Source of the DNA: Luteolibacter ambystomatis
GTDB taxonomy: Bacteria > Verrucomicrobiota > Verrucomicrobiia > Verrucomicrobiales > Akkermansiaceae
Assembly (NCBI RefSeq): GCF_018137965.1
Contig: NZ_CP073100.1
Span: 3,793,754 to 3,857,753 of the forward strand
Direction of reading: 5' to 3'
DNA length: 64,000 nucleotides
Shown here: piece by piece, positions 2,879-16,459 of the stretch
Numbering within the stretch: the first letter of the stretch is position 1
How the letters are laid out: every line of letters starts with the position of its first letter
Made by a program: the position numbers and the translations under genes
The notes under the pieces: generated by a model
Database searches by the model: none
What the model was told of the DNA's origin: nothing
What the model saw: the letters and a program-made list of their open reading frames with translations, nothing else

Positions 2879-4057
2879 ATGAAACCCACCCTTCTGCTCC
2901 TTGCCTCCACGCTATTGGCTGCCGCGGAACCCACCGTGCCCGCCACCCCCGTCCAGCCATCTCCTGCGGCACCGGCTCCCGCCCGGTTGAACGAGAAACC
3001 GGCCCCTACCTTGATCGTTGGTTCCGCCGTCACGCCGGAAGTGCTCGGACAGGGCGAATGGCTCCAAGGAGAAGCTCCGAAAAGCTGGGAACCGGGAAAG
3101 GTCTATCTTCTCGAATGCTGGGCGACATGGTGCGGGCCCTGCATCGCTGCCATTCCCCACGTCAATGAGCTACATGCCAAGTATGCGGGGAAAGGTCTGG
3201 TCGTGCTGGGGATGAACGTCTGGGAACGCACCGGCAGGGATCCCGTCGCCACCTTCGTCAAGAACAAGGGACAAGGCATGACCTATCCCGTTTCCTACAA
3301 TCCGAAGGATGGCGCGTTCGACAAACAGTGGCTGGTGCCCGCGGGAGTCGAAGGCATCCCCCACACCTTTGTCGTGAAGGATGGCAGGATCATCCTGATG
3401 TGCCATCCGATGCAACTGACCGACGATGCCATCAAAGGCCTTCTCAAGGGAGGCGACGCCGGGGCCGCCGTGGTCGCCGGAATCCAGGAAGATGACGCGA
3501 GGAAGGAAAAGGTTGGCGCGGCCATGCGGAAATTCAGCGAAGCCACCCGGAAGAAGGATGTCGCCGCGATGGAAGGAGCCATCGCCGAGATCAAGGCACT
3601 CGATCCCGCCAACAACGCGCTCAAGGCGCATCAACTGACCCTGCTGACGATCAGGGGCGACTGGGCGGAACTGGAAACCACGGTGAGCGCCCTGCCGGAT
3701 GCACCGGTCCGCCCGATGCTGGCATTCAACGTGGGCCGGCTCGCGGCTGCCGATCCTGCCGCTCCCACCAGCCTGATGAAGCTGCTCGCCTCGCAGATGA
3801 CGGCGTTCGCGGAAACCCGAAACGAGCCCTACACCTTTCAGATTCTGGCCAAGCTCCAATGGCGGGCCGGAGACAAGGAAGCCGCCCTCACGAGCGCGAA
3901 AAAGTCTTTGGCCGCCGCGAAGTCGGACAAATCCAAGAGCATGAAGCTCAACACCGCTCCCTTCCAGAGCTTCCTGGAAGGAATGGAGGCCGGAAAACTC
4001 CTAAGCGACCAGGAACTCTCCGCCGCCGCCCGGCAGATGGCTCCTGCCAAACCCTGA
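2879..4057 (+). CDS. Exported thioredoxin-fold (TlpA/ResA-like) protein with C-terminal helical region
   Basis: 392 residues from the ATG at 2879, preceded by GGAG; a longer reading from 2843 would put 12 unlikely residues in front of a clean signal peptide. After the signal peptide and a Pro/Ala linker, a thioredoxin-like domain lies at roughly residues 35-190 with the redox motif WCGPC (in LECWATWCGPC) and the cis-Pro loop in GVEGIPHTF. This is the TlpA/ResA/redoxin arrangement, used for thiol-disulfide exchange in the periplasm. Residues 210-385 are a helical extension resembling tetratricopeptide material. No substrate can be named. It is the third gene in the rightward run, 58 bp after the preceding stop. 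Confidence 0.85.
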   Translation: MKPTLLLLASTLLAAAEPTVPATPVQPSPAAPAPARLNEKPAPTLIVGSAVTPEVLGQGEWLQGEAPKSWEPGKVYLLECWATWCGPCIAAIPHVNELHAKYAGKGLVVLGMNVWERTGRDPVATFVKNKGQGMTYPVSYNPKDGAFDKQWLVPAGVEGIPHTFVVKDGRIILMCHPMQLTDDAIKGLLKGGDAGAAVVAGIQEDDARKEKVGAAMRKFSEATRKKDVAAMEGAIAEIKALDPANNALKAHQLTLLTIRGDWAELETTVSALPDAPVRPMLAFNVGRLAAADPAAPTSLMKLLASQMTAFAETRNEPYTFQILAKLQWRAGDKEAALTSAKKSLAAAKSDKSKSMKLNTAPFQSFLEGMEAGKLLSDQELSAAARQMAPAKP

Positions 4058-13799: not shown

Positions 13800-14102
13800 A
13801 TGAAAACATATGCAATAATCTATCGCGGAGAAAAACAAGATAGAATTTACGCCATCTACGAAACAATATCAAAATTATTTAACGTCATCAGTTGTGAGTT
13901 CGATGACGGAATTTGCTTCGTAAAAACAAATGAATCGCCCGAGCGCTCACTTGAGCGCATCGCGACAAATATGGAGCTGAATTTAGCCGACACCATATAC
14001 ATATTCAGAATATCCAAAGAATATACCGCAGCGGGAACAACCAAAACAATACGCGCTCTCGATGCCGCTCTAGAAGAAGACAGCCAACACACTCATTCTT
14101 AA
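13800..14102 (+). CDS. Small ferredoxin-fold-like protein (Cas2/SinR-like layout) next to the retron
   Basis: 100 residues, AT-rich codons like the rest of the island. The predicted order is strand (KTYAIIY), helix (IYAIYETISKLF), strand (VISCEF), strand (GICFVKT), helix (SPERSLERIATNM), strand (DTIYIFRIS). That is the beta-alpha-beta-beta-alpha-beta order of ferredoxin-like folds such as Cas2 and SinR/VapD-type proteins. This is an inference from pattern only. It is convergent with the reverse transcriptase gene and their TAA stops share the palindrome TTAA at 14099-14102. It could be a third accessory protein, an antitoxin-like regulator or an unrelated passenger of the island. Confidence 0.6.
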   Translation: MKTYAIIYRGEKQDRIYAIYETISKLFNVISCEFDDGICFVKTNESPERSLERIATNMELNLADTIYIFRISKEYTAAGTTKTIRALDAALEEDSQHTHS

Positions 14103-15061
14103 GAACCCAATCCAAATCTCTCGACTGATTTGGCATAAGACAAGTGCCCCAATGCGACATCCTCAGATTCCGGGCTCAGCTTGCCACTATTTTCAAGATG
14201 TCGCAAAGCTCGGATTCTATTGCGATATCCCTTCGTTAGACGAGGCACATCCCCACTGACGAGCAAACCGTAAACCTTAAGTCGATTGGGACGCCTTGAA
14301 AATCGGGTCTTGGAGCTGGATATCGACCATCCCGCAGCAGTCACGATTTCCAGAATCTTATTTTCGAGATCAGGAGGGGGATTTCCCCGTCCCGAAATCA
14401 CAATATCGTCTGCATATCTAGTATACACCAGCTCATTGTCCAAAGAATAATTTTCAATCAAAACATCAAACTCCGAAAAACATATATTCGAGAGCACTGG
14501 ACTACAAGGTGCGCCTTGAGCCAAGTTCCCATTCAGGCAAGAAAGTTTAGAAAAAAGCTCGGCTCCTTCGGCAGGAAATCCAAATTTGATCAAGCTTTGC
14601 GTAACTCGCGATTGGGCTGTCGTTTGAAAAAAGTTCTCAATGTCGGTGGAAAATACCCAGTCTTGCGAGCAATGCCTCGCAGCTCCGTCAATAGCGGATA
14701 TTTTAGGAATGAACCCAACGACGGATGGGGATAATTTTAGATTATTAGCCAGATGAAAACCGGCCCATTTTTGAATTACTTTAAGGGCAACCCTTGGAGC
14801 ATCAATTCGTCTAAACTTGCCATTACCCTTCGGCAAATAAAATGTCCTATAGTATCTATCAGGGTTTTTGCACATTGCGCCAATGAATCTTGGCGAATAG
14901 CCAAAAAGCACTCCCAATGTTGCTTTTGAAACAATCGGTGGAAATCCAATTTCCACAAGCGCAGACAAAGAGCTCGCAGCCGAAGAATTATCTTCTACCC
15001 CACAAGCGAGAAAAAGACGGTGGAGCGAATCGAAAGAAACAAGGAGTGGCGGTGCGTTCAC
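14099..15061 (-). CDS. Retron-type reverse transcriptase
   Basis: Up to 320 residues. Motifs in order: RRIDAPR at 84-90, GAARH at 126-130 (a variant of the retron NAxxH), FSTDIENFF at 137-145, QGAPCSP at 182-188, the catalytic YADD at 216-219, and VYG at 253-255 in the position of the retron VTG. The enzyme would prime on a guanosine of its cognate RNA and make branched multicopy single-stranded DNA. The GTG start at 15061 reads through the a2 arm of the RNA, so translation may start later, for example at GTG or TTG codons near residues 32-36. The RNA gene lies immediately upstream on the same strand, the standard retron order. The gene is AT-rich and probably horizontally acquired. Confidence 0.93.
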   Translation of the reverse strand: MNAPPLLVSFDSLHRLFLACGVEDNSSAASSLSALVEIGFPPIVSKATLGVLFGYSPRFIGAMCKNPDRYYRTFYLPKGNGKFRRIDAPRVALKVIQKWAGFHLANNLKLSPSVVGFIPKISAIDGAARHCSQDWVFSTDIENFFQTTAQSRVTQSLIKFGFPAEGAELFSKLSCLNGNLAQGAPCSPVLSNICFSEFDVLIENYSLDNELVYTRYADDIVISGRGNPPPDLENKILEIVTAAGWSISSSKTRFSRRPNRLKVYGLLVSGDVPRLTKGYRNRIRALRHLENSGKLSPESEDVALGHLSYAKSVERFGLGS

Positions 15062-15229
15062 GGGTCAAAAGCGAAGTGTTGAGAACTTCCGTTGAGATCC
15101 GGCGGCCATGCGGCGATCCGAACCGAAGGGGCGGTCGCCGCATGGCCGCCGGCCCTTCTGTCGTAGACCTCTGCTAATGAGGATGATGCACCCTCTCGCA
15201 GTAGAGAGATGCGCACCGCCACTCCTTGG
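15040..15229 (-). ncRNA. Retron msr-msd RNA
   Basis: Read on the minus strand. The a1 arm (15228-15212) and a2 arm (15056-15040) are perfectly complementary over 17 nt (CAAGGAGTGGCGGTGCG / CGCACCGCCACTCCTTG). After a1 come two msr hairpins: CTCTC-TACTGC-GAGAG (15208-15193) and CCTC-ATTAGCA-GAGG (15182-15168). The msd then has an 18-bp perfect stem (15152-15135 with 15116-15099) and an 18-nt loop. A minor hairpin follows before a2. A branching G near the end of a1 is expected but cannot be fixed by eye. The RNA lies between the stop of the 242-residue partner gene (15237) and the reverse transcriptase, and its 3' arm overlaps the start of the RT frame. Total length is about 190 nt. Confidence 0.9.
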
Positions 15230-15236
15230 GAAATCT

Positions 15237-15965
15237 CTACCATTTTTTCCTCGCTAGTTCAAGAGCCCTTTTTACATCAGAAGAACTTCTCGATCGATGA
15301 GAAGCAAAAATGTACAAAGAAGCATGAGTCGGCACATAGTTTCCCGATTCTTGCCAAATGACCCATTTCTTCTTTCGAAGCCGATCTATGACCAACAGAA
15401 CTTGGGCTACCGAAATCGCGGATGATCGAGTCGACTGAAAATTCAATGCACTACATATTTTCTCCGCAGAAACAGGAGAATTCCGCAATATGATTTGGAG
15501 TACCTCTGCTTCAGCTAAATGATCTGTAAATCTTGCTTCAAAGAGGATATTCGTATTGCGATATTCAAGAGACTCGAAAACCGAGTTTGCTACTTTGGTG
15601 ATTTTTTTAGTTGTTTCCTTTGTTAGCTCATCTTCATGGCAAAGCAGTGAAATCGAAACAGTTGGTTTAAAGGATCTAAGATTTTCAAGATTGATCGAAT
15701 CGACTAAAATTCCAACAGCCTCTGCAATGAGTGCCCCAAGACTTTGCGTGATCGTATCGCGCAGCCTATCCGCGTGCCGAACGATCATGACTTCGGAATC
15801 AATTAACTGAGACACTTTGCTACGTAATGTCGAAATCTGCCTTTCCGTTGCTTGAACTGTGTCGTCAATGATCAAGAATGTCACTTCCGGGCCTTCTTCT
15901 ATTTTAGAATTCTTATACCGACCTCGCGAAAAATCGCGAATGAATTCCCTGATAAGATCATTCAT
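15237..15965 (-). CDS. Retron-associated protein with C-terminal winged-helix-like region
   Basis: 242 residues from the ATG at 15965, which overlaps the stop of the HEPN-like gene by 4 bp (ATGA); an upstream ATG at 15986 gives 249. The N-terminal ~140 residues alternate strands and helices (TFLIIDDTVQ, VMIVRHADR, VSISLLCHEDE) like an alpha/beta sensor or nucleotide-binding fold, but I find no Walker, GSxxxxD or toprim motif. Residues ~160-215 look like a winged helix (ILRNSPVSAEKICSALN followed by a recognition-like helix and a KKKWVIW wing). The gene ends 8 bp before the retron RNA. Order and spacing suggest it is a retron accessory or effector; the function is unknown. Confidence 0.75.
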   Translation of the reverse strand: MNDLIREFIRDFSRGRYKNSKIEEGPEVTFLIIDDTVQATERQISTLRSKVSQLIDSEVMIVRHADRLRDTITQSLGALIAEAVGILVDSINLENLRSFKPTVSISLLCHEDELTKETTKKITKVANSVFESLEYRNTNILFEARFTDHLAEAEVLQIILRNSPVSAEKICSALNFQSTRSSAISVAQVLLVIDRLRKKKWVIWQESGNYVPTHASLYIFASHRSRSSSDVKRALELARKKW

Positions 15966-16459
15966 AATCCTAAGATAATTCTGCACTCGGATAGAATCCC
16001 TACATGTTTTCTCATTTCGGAGTGCAAAGTTTCTATTGTTGAGAGCTTATGATTATTCAGAATAAGAGCTCCATTTACTAATTCCGCTTTAAATTCCGGG
16101 CTATAATCAGCAATACATCTAATAGCGTAACCTGCTGTGAGTAGCTTGGCCATCTCCATGATGGAATGTTCAATTCGCCCTCTGAGTCTGCCGTATTCTT
16201 TCGCGGTGACTAAACTTTTTTTTCGAAGGTGTTCTAACTGCTCGATAGATTCCTTTTTGACACTTGATTTTAAATAATCCGGAAGGGCTTTGTGTCCGAT
16301 TTTAAGCCAATTTTTATGAATATTCGGAAGAGTTGTTCTTAATTCCCAATAACAAGCGTAATAAAATCGATTGAATGCACTGCGTCCAAAGGTATCGATT
16401 TTTGCTGCCGCATCTAAACCGCTAGCATAATCTTTAAGATGTAAAGCTACGTCCAGCAT
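15962..16459 (-). CDS. HEPN-like protein of the retron operon
   Basis: 165 residues, all-helical and AT-rich. The N-terminal helix pair FGRSAFNRFYYACYWELR resembles HEPN proteins, and an R-x4-H motif (R93-GRIE-H98) sits in the second half, as in HEPN ribonucleases. The later CIADYSPE fits the ADY segment of the same superfamily. HEPN proteins are often toxic RNases in defence and toxin-antitoxin systems. The start lies 11 bp beyond the stop of the FHA-ABC gene on the same strand, so it may be read through from that gene. Its stop overlaps the next start (ATGA). Assignment to HEPN is by pattern only. Confidence 0.62.
   Translation of the reverse strand: MLDVALHLKDYASGLDAAAKIDTFGRSAFNRFYYACYWELRTTLPNIHKNWLKIGHKALPDYLKSSVKKESIEQLEHLRKKSLVTAKEYGRLRGRIEHSIMEMAKLLTAGYAIRCIADYSPEFKAELVNGALILNNHKLSTIETLHSEMRKHVGILSECRIILGL

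Follow-up and report, generated by a model that had tools for sequence, protein, structure and literature searches.

A predicted type IX retron in Luteolibacter ambystomatis, complete by its parts, with its a2 arm inside the reverse transcriptase reading frame

In the accessible text of PMC13405049, type IX retrons are defined by HEPN and winged-helix (WH) genes that share one operon with a noncoding RNA (ncRNA) and a reverse transcriptase (RT), and anti-phage activity is demonstrated for one member, retron-Kva2, for which phage defence through tRNA cleavage by HEPN is reported. The Kva2 complex holds four RT to four msDNA, the latter 55 nt long, and its WH protein contacts the msDNA both at the tip (G26, A27, A28 and G29) and near the end (T57, T58 and C59, with T60 as the boundary); D190 and N193 touch the flipped G26/A27, and a helix of WH residues 230-245 touches T57-C59 (same text of PMC13405049). 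The terms 'type IX' and 'HEPN' are absent from the accessible part of PMC12548924.

We analysed a stretch of 64,000 nt (positions 3,793,754 to 3,857,753 of contig NZ_CP073100.1; this whole stretch is called the window below) from the genome of L. ambystomatis, which is one contig of 5.3 Mb. Its minus strand carries, in this order, genes for a HEPN RNase and a WH protein, an ncRNA and an RT gene, and all three reading frames are open. The features, in coordinates of the window, are:

15962-16459, minus strand: HEPN RNase effector, 165 aa (PADLOC HEPN_IX, 6.7e-35; HEPN of PDB 36HT, 4.6e-19)
15237-15986, minus strand: WH protein, 249 aa (PADLOC HTH_IX, 1e-23; WH of 36HT, 4.1e-5)
15040-15228, minus strand: retron ncRNA, a1-msr-msd-a2 (leave-one-out covariance model; fold z -9.0)
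15212-15228, minus strand: a1 arm, 17 bp with a2; CAAGGAGTGGCGGTGCG
15171-15201, minus strand: msr, a 7-bp hairpin with a CAU loop (15179-15195) within a short outer stem (covariation, 37 sequences)
15073-15089, minus strand: small hairpin GAAGT/ACTTC between the msd stem and the RT start (fold; conserved alignment blocks)
15040-15056, minus strand: a2 arm, inside the RT frame (codons 2-8), 17 bp with a1; CGCACCGCCACTCCTTG
14099-15061, minus strand: retron RT, 320 aa, GTG start (PADLOC RT_IX, 3.1e-116; RT of 36HT, 1.4e-67; Pfam RVT_1, 4.7e-18)
15100-15159, plus strand: predicted msDNA, residues 1-60 in Kva2 numbering (residue n at 15099 + n), ends inferred (DNA fold z -7.0)
15125-15128, plus strand: GAAG tip, msDNA 26-29, a predicted 4-nt loop (motif and spacing; Kva2 contacts in the accessible text of PMC13405049)
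15156-15159, plus strand: TTCT, msDNA 57-60, copy of a conserved AGAA in the RNA (motif and spacing; Kva2 contacts in the same text)

PADLOC calls the HEPN, WH and RT proteins type IX alike: the RT scored 385.9 bits with RT_IX against 208.5 bits with the next-best model, and the other retron types (RT_II-A, III-A, X and others), with scores far below RT_IX, were rejected. The retron types were reportedly defined in Mestre et al. 2020. Each of the three proteins also matches one chain of PDB 36HT, the solved retron-Kva2, at 231 bits for the RT and only 27 bits for the WH protein. The original prediction had identified a retron, and at the level of sequence this was upheld by an RT carrying both the YADD and VYG motifs that it named, paired arms, an msr hairpin and a long msd stem; it had not recognised the retron, which can now be assigned to type IX through the PADLOC models. 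The two effector genes, the overlap between a2 and the RT gene and the conserved msr fold were absent from it.

Relatives were collected with a profile built from the window RT and two plasmid RTs (Leisingera and Photobacterium), which matched 168 RTs in genome contigs (the best 80 of 168 listed) and 57 in viral contigs, and the 40 top-ranked loci were taken (the window, L009, L010, L011-L046 and L091). HEPN was found in 33 of the 40 and the WH protein in 37, one of them partial (L046). Three of the loci without HEPN (L013, L014 and L091) start at a contig end close upstream; the others are L021, L044, L045 and L046. L021, from a Nitrosomonas MAG, has in the place of HEPN and WH an ORF (3442-3813) that we take to be IS200-like, before a type IX ncRNA and RT. 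L044 and L045 gave no convincing HEPN or WH (weak tblastn pieces) and no a1/a2 helix that could be accepted at the chosen starts; in L045 the RT match covers residues 114-316 only and the start is unsure. L046, on a deep branch, was matched by both covariance models (E 1.6e-5 and 3.3e-5) and has a2 in the RT frame. L044, L045 and L046 were left out of the ncRNA counts, which thus refer to 37 loci. The type IX retron L091 comes from a contig in a viral collection (IMG/VR). In the RT tree the window groups with three Planctomycetota type IX RTs (L011, L014 and L019; support 97/95). Among 387 genomes of its own phylum, an RT_IX match below 1e-100 was found solely in the window's genome (8e-115); seven others reached 4.9e-60 to 1.7e-51, the level attained by other retron types. 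No other genome of the 387 gave a strong ncRNA covariance match, and the one in G125 (E 0.0052 per genome, over 387 genomes) was dismissed as expected by chance.

In the ncRNA, a1 (15228-15212) and a2 (15056-15040) form 17 bp with zero mismatches, as originally described, and this helix scores 46, a value never attained when the upstream region was dinucleotide-shuffled 100 times (best 25). The 18-bp perfect msd stem is likewise present, and folding of 15030-15240 gives -110.8 kcal/mol (z -9.0). This stem had been singled out as notable; a long stem proved ordinary in type IX, since relatives also carry one, and the GC-rich stem was dropped as an oddity, but the folding energy of the window ncRNA (-109.1) is indeed the lowest of the 37, the others ranging from -58.0 to -99.4. 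The msr had to be revised. The two small hairpins first proposed (loops TACTGC and ATTAGCA) are real as short inverted repeats but incompatible with the conserved fold. That fold has one hairpin, GAGGGTG-CAT-CATCCTC (15195-15179), inside an outer stem CTGC/GCAG (15201-15171), and is supported by two-sided changes among the 37 aligned ncRNAs. In the consensus of the 37, both sides change in at least one sequence at 24 of 26 predicted pairs (msd stem and msr); a1 and a2 are unpaired there because the arms shift register between loci, and their pairs were counted apart. Arms that are not conserved in homologues had been named as a refutation, and this check did not refute the retron: 37 loci, counting the window, retain the two arms, the msr hairpin and the msd stem. 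A covariance model from the 36 relatives, built without the window, found the window ncRNA at 118.7 bits (E 2.6e-27); the two covariance models also gave a weak match to the plus-strand mirror of the stem (E 0.04-0.07). Rfam gave no family at its gathering score in the window, and chance-like matches only at E<=10. In the region of the small hairpin, (C)GAAAG-like and CTTTGC-like blocks are conserved in the alignment. Two peculiarities were seen besides: 7 nt in the window msr region (15171-15228) are absent from the other 36 aligned type IX ncRNAs, and the spirochaete ncRNA L027:1853-2010 has a much shorter msd that lacks the conserved tip spacing.

The predicted msDNA carries GAAG and TTCT at the places of the Kva2 contacts, 31 nt apart as are G26 and T57 of Kva2, and, folded as DNA, has exactly positions 26-29 as its loop. 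The accessible text of PMC13405049 varies on residue 26, writing it once as G and once as C, so that the match in numbering depends on the two motifs, GAAG and TTCT, combined with their distance of 31 nt. When exact letters are required, 9 of the 37 ncRNAs have a spacing of 31 nt, 19 of 30 nt and 4 of 29 nt (32/37 in total); with GGAG and one ATAA allowed, variants admitted post hoc once the exceptions were seen, the numbers are 12, 20 and 4 (36/37, L027 being the exception). GGAG replaces GAAG at the tip in the Planctomycetota loci L011, L014 and L019, also at 31 nt. Since the window, though distant from Kva2, keeps the two predicted msDNA contact points 31 nt apart, this spacing looks like a molecular ruler of type IX. 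If the numbering holds, the stretch from the msd stem to a2, small hairpin included, would lie outside the mature msDNA.

Aligned to 36HT, the HEPN catalytic pair H56/R114 corresponds to H64/R122 of Kva2, both residues being present in all 33 HEPNs found (window included), and F32-Y33-Y34 to Y40-42, with F in place of Y40 in 8 of the 33. In the WH protein, D201/R204/K205 correspond to Kva2 D197/R200/K201, and 34 of 37 rows have D at the place of D201, the exceptions being L015 (E), L027 (N) and L046 (a gap); D237, R240 and L242, the counterparts of Kva2 D233, R236 and L238, are invariant among the 22 of 37 proteins aligned. Where Kva2 has W191, a tryptophan shared by 33 of 37 rows, the window has Q195. 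It has A and L for D190 and N193, two sites that vary among relatives as well, so their change says little. The window WH protein is divergent: it shares 16-24% identity with 20 of the other 21 aligned proteins and 14-15% with the lowest. Its structural model (pLDDT 85.1, pTM 0.47) gave query TM-scores of at most 0.27 among the 50 Foldseek matches listed, and 36HT was not among them; the structure library runs to April 2026 and the Kva2 preprint dates from July 2026, and the comparison was given no weight.

By analogy with Kva2, reverse transcription of the msd by the RT would yield a hairpin DNA of ~55-60 nt tipped by GAAG, and RT, msDNA and WH protein would assemble around a HEPN dimer and keep it inactive. 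A phage DNA-binding protein would then displace the WH protein at the msDNA tip and remodel the complex, and the freed HEPN tRNase would stop growth of the infected cell. Synthesis of msDNA, assembly, trigger and tRNA cleavage at this locus are all likely on the Kva2 precedent, the evidence for function here being wholly comparative.

The cassette is an AT-rich insert of ~2.9 kb, with 38-52% G+C (400-nt windows) against 64-72% around it, and is flanked by an ABC-transporter gene and a kinase gene with ~2.88 kb between them. In G307, a relative from another genus, the transporter stop and the kinase ATG are 9 nt apart; in the three same-genus genomes searched, neither flanking gene was found at the thresholds used. 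Only 11 nt separate the transporter stop from the HEPN start, so transcription of the operon may come from the host gene; sigma-70-like matches number 4 where 4.5 are expected, and none stands out as a promoter of the operon itself. Mobile-element ends (the two insert edges searched share one exact repeat of 7 nt and no longer one) and a phage origin (no informative PHROG match) were rejected as candidates, and there is no tRNA in the window. The same insert holds, convergent with the RT, a 100-aa ORF (13800-14102, plus strand) with no match at curated cut-offs (best PADLOC JetB, 0.0023; no PHROG) and no copy in the other loci examined; we presume that it resembles small SinR/Cas2-like proteins.

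Gene content and order, family membership, the ncRNA fold, the tip and 3'-end motifs with their spacing and the catalytic residues point, on sequence, to a retron that is complete and by its parts an ordinary type IX, with a mechanism well supported by homology. We put at about 0.88 the probability that the locus, which was probably acquired horizontally, is a complete type IX retron working as reported for Kva2. That this host carries a decayed or repurposed retron is improbable: the locus is the sole RT_IX match below 1e-100 in the 387 genomes of the phylum, its WH protein is divergent and the relative L021 shows such decay, but the three frames are open and the HEPN catalytic residues and RNA motifs intact. 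A chance hairpin beside an unrelated RT has practically nothing in its favour except the missing Rfam match, and is contradicted by the fold z of -9.0, the shuffle control, the covariation and the leave-one-out model; we regard its probability as negligible.

The ncRNA had been placed directly before the RT; instead, a2 lies within the RT reading frame. The earliest possible RT start is the GTG at 15061, with an in-frame TGA one codon upstream, and a2 spans nt +5 to +21 (first base of GTG = 0), that is, codons 2-8. When a2 was scanned for from -80 to +60 relative to the RT start, it fell inside the RT frame in 37 of the 40 loci (as the best helix; the second best in L039). In the clade of MRLPH-like RTs (15 members, support 100/99) a2 runs from +1 to +12 or +15 in 14 of 15 and from +8 to +19 in L043, and in the other 22 loci, whose RTs begin MNAPPLLVSF or similar, it lies between +2 and +24. 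Shuffled upstream regions (100 per locus) never reached the observed helix at 30 of the 37 loci, and at the other 7 did so in 1 to 10 cases. A swap control, stricter and at the same time weaker in outcome, had the own a1 beat all 36 foreign a1 regions in 11 of 37 loci; each of the remaining 26 had between one and nine foreign regions that were equal or better, some of these being near copies in the RT tree (L009/L030 and L010/L036/L039). Watson-Crick pairing of a1 with a2 is 0.890 over 19 loci and 0.900 over 15 (L013, L018 and L040, of differing register, stood outside this test), and none of 2000 deals in which a1 was redistributed among loci, with relatedness ignored, reached these values (means 0.747 and 0.770, maxima 0.813 and 0.844). 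Within the 19 loci, Leu codon 6 is CTC in 13 of the 15 that bear Leu there, where the codon habits of the genes themselves predict 1.4. RT codons 4-6 have a third-position G+C of 0.65, compared with 0.35 for the rest. Pairing above chance together with this codon skew indicates that RNA pairing shapes the RT coding sequence.

For comparison we took 40 RT loci other than type IX, 39 with a usable start, and kept the best of all candidate starts. Three of the 39 (L049, L050 and L061) reach a helix score of 26; in L047, L049 and L050 a strong helix ends shortly before a plausible ATG, and in L049 and L050 an earlier start would place a2 in frame, so that an in-frame a2 cannot yet be called exclusive to type IX. 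We found no description of the a2/RT overlap in the part of the retron literature that was searched (the accessible parts of PMC8989520 and of the review PMC6868368 included), which does not establish novelty; the accessible main text of PMC13405049 contains neither 'overlap' nor 'start codon'.

From the overlap, one transcript molecule should serve as either RT message or folded ncRNA, and RT translation and ncRNA folding may compete. We tentatively propose, at somewhat short of even odds, that a1 folding onto a2 hides the RT start in a self-limiting switch that makes each transcript RT message or msDNA template. The overlap could be an artefact of annotation, the true RT start lying downstream and a2 being merely leader, and the GTG start of the window RT would fit this, as would the count of Shine-Dalgarno matches of at least 5 nt (none at 37 RT starts, 5 of 33 for HEPN and 13 of 36 for WH, with ORF starts taken mechanically), although the scarcity at HEPN starts makes the lack at RT starts weak evidence. 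Against it, the next start in the window is 31 codons on and would cost the conserved PLLVSF segment, which the solved Kva2 RT chain carries at residues 6-11, and ATG is the chosen start at 33 of the 37 loci, an in-frame stop lying within a few codons upstream of some starts; we therefore consider an artefact quite improbable. A real overlap with no regulatory effect, in a compact operon that keeps a2 pairing for msDNA synthesis only, is a genuine contender, a little less probable than a coin toss: closeness of a2 to the RT start is general, as Ec86 illustrates, and a small shift would suffice, while the arm register, which differs between clades yet stays in frame, fits a selected position but also drift. 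Should the proposed switch be true, it would keep RT and msDNA near the 1:1 of the complex and so the HEPN toxin covered, and a coding a2 arm, present in 37 loci, would be a simple way for a toxin-holding ribonucleoprotein to balance its parts. For tool builders, excising a type IX ncRNA or recoding an RT start would alter both parts together.

Among known systems, the locus is close to retron-Kva2 of Klebsiella variicola (PDB 36HT; accessible text of PMC13405049), with HEPN, WH, RT and ncRNA in one operon, homologous chains, the HEPN H/R pair, a YADD RT and msDNA GAAG and TTCT at 26-29 and 57-60, and unlike it in having Q for W191 in the WH protein. The type IX loci of Planctomycetota (L011, L014 and L019), whose RTs are the nearest by path, share the ncRNA layout and the a2 in the RT frame, and differ at the tip (GGAG instead of GAAG). 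Ec86/Eco1 of E. coli also has an a1-msr-msd-a2 RNA just upstream of a retron RT; unlike the window, its effector is annotated as St85-family and its a2 ends 6 nt before the RT ATG (L148:2676), outside the frame, this ATG being the one that yields the 320 aa of the PDB chain, whereas the record annotates a later one.
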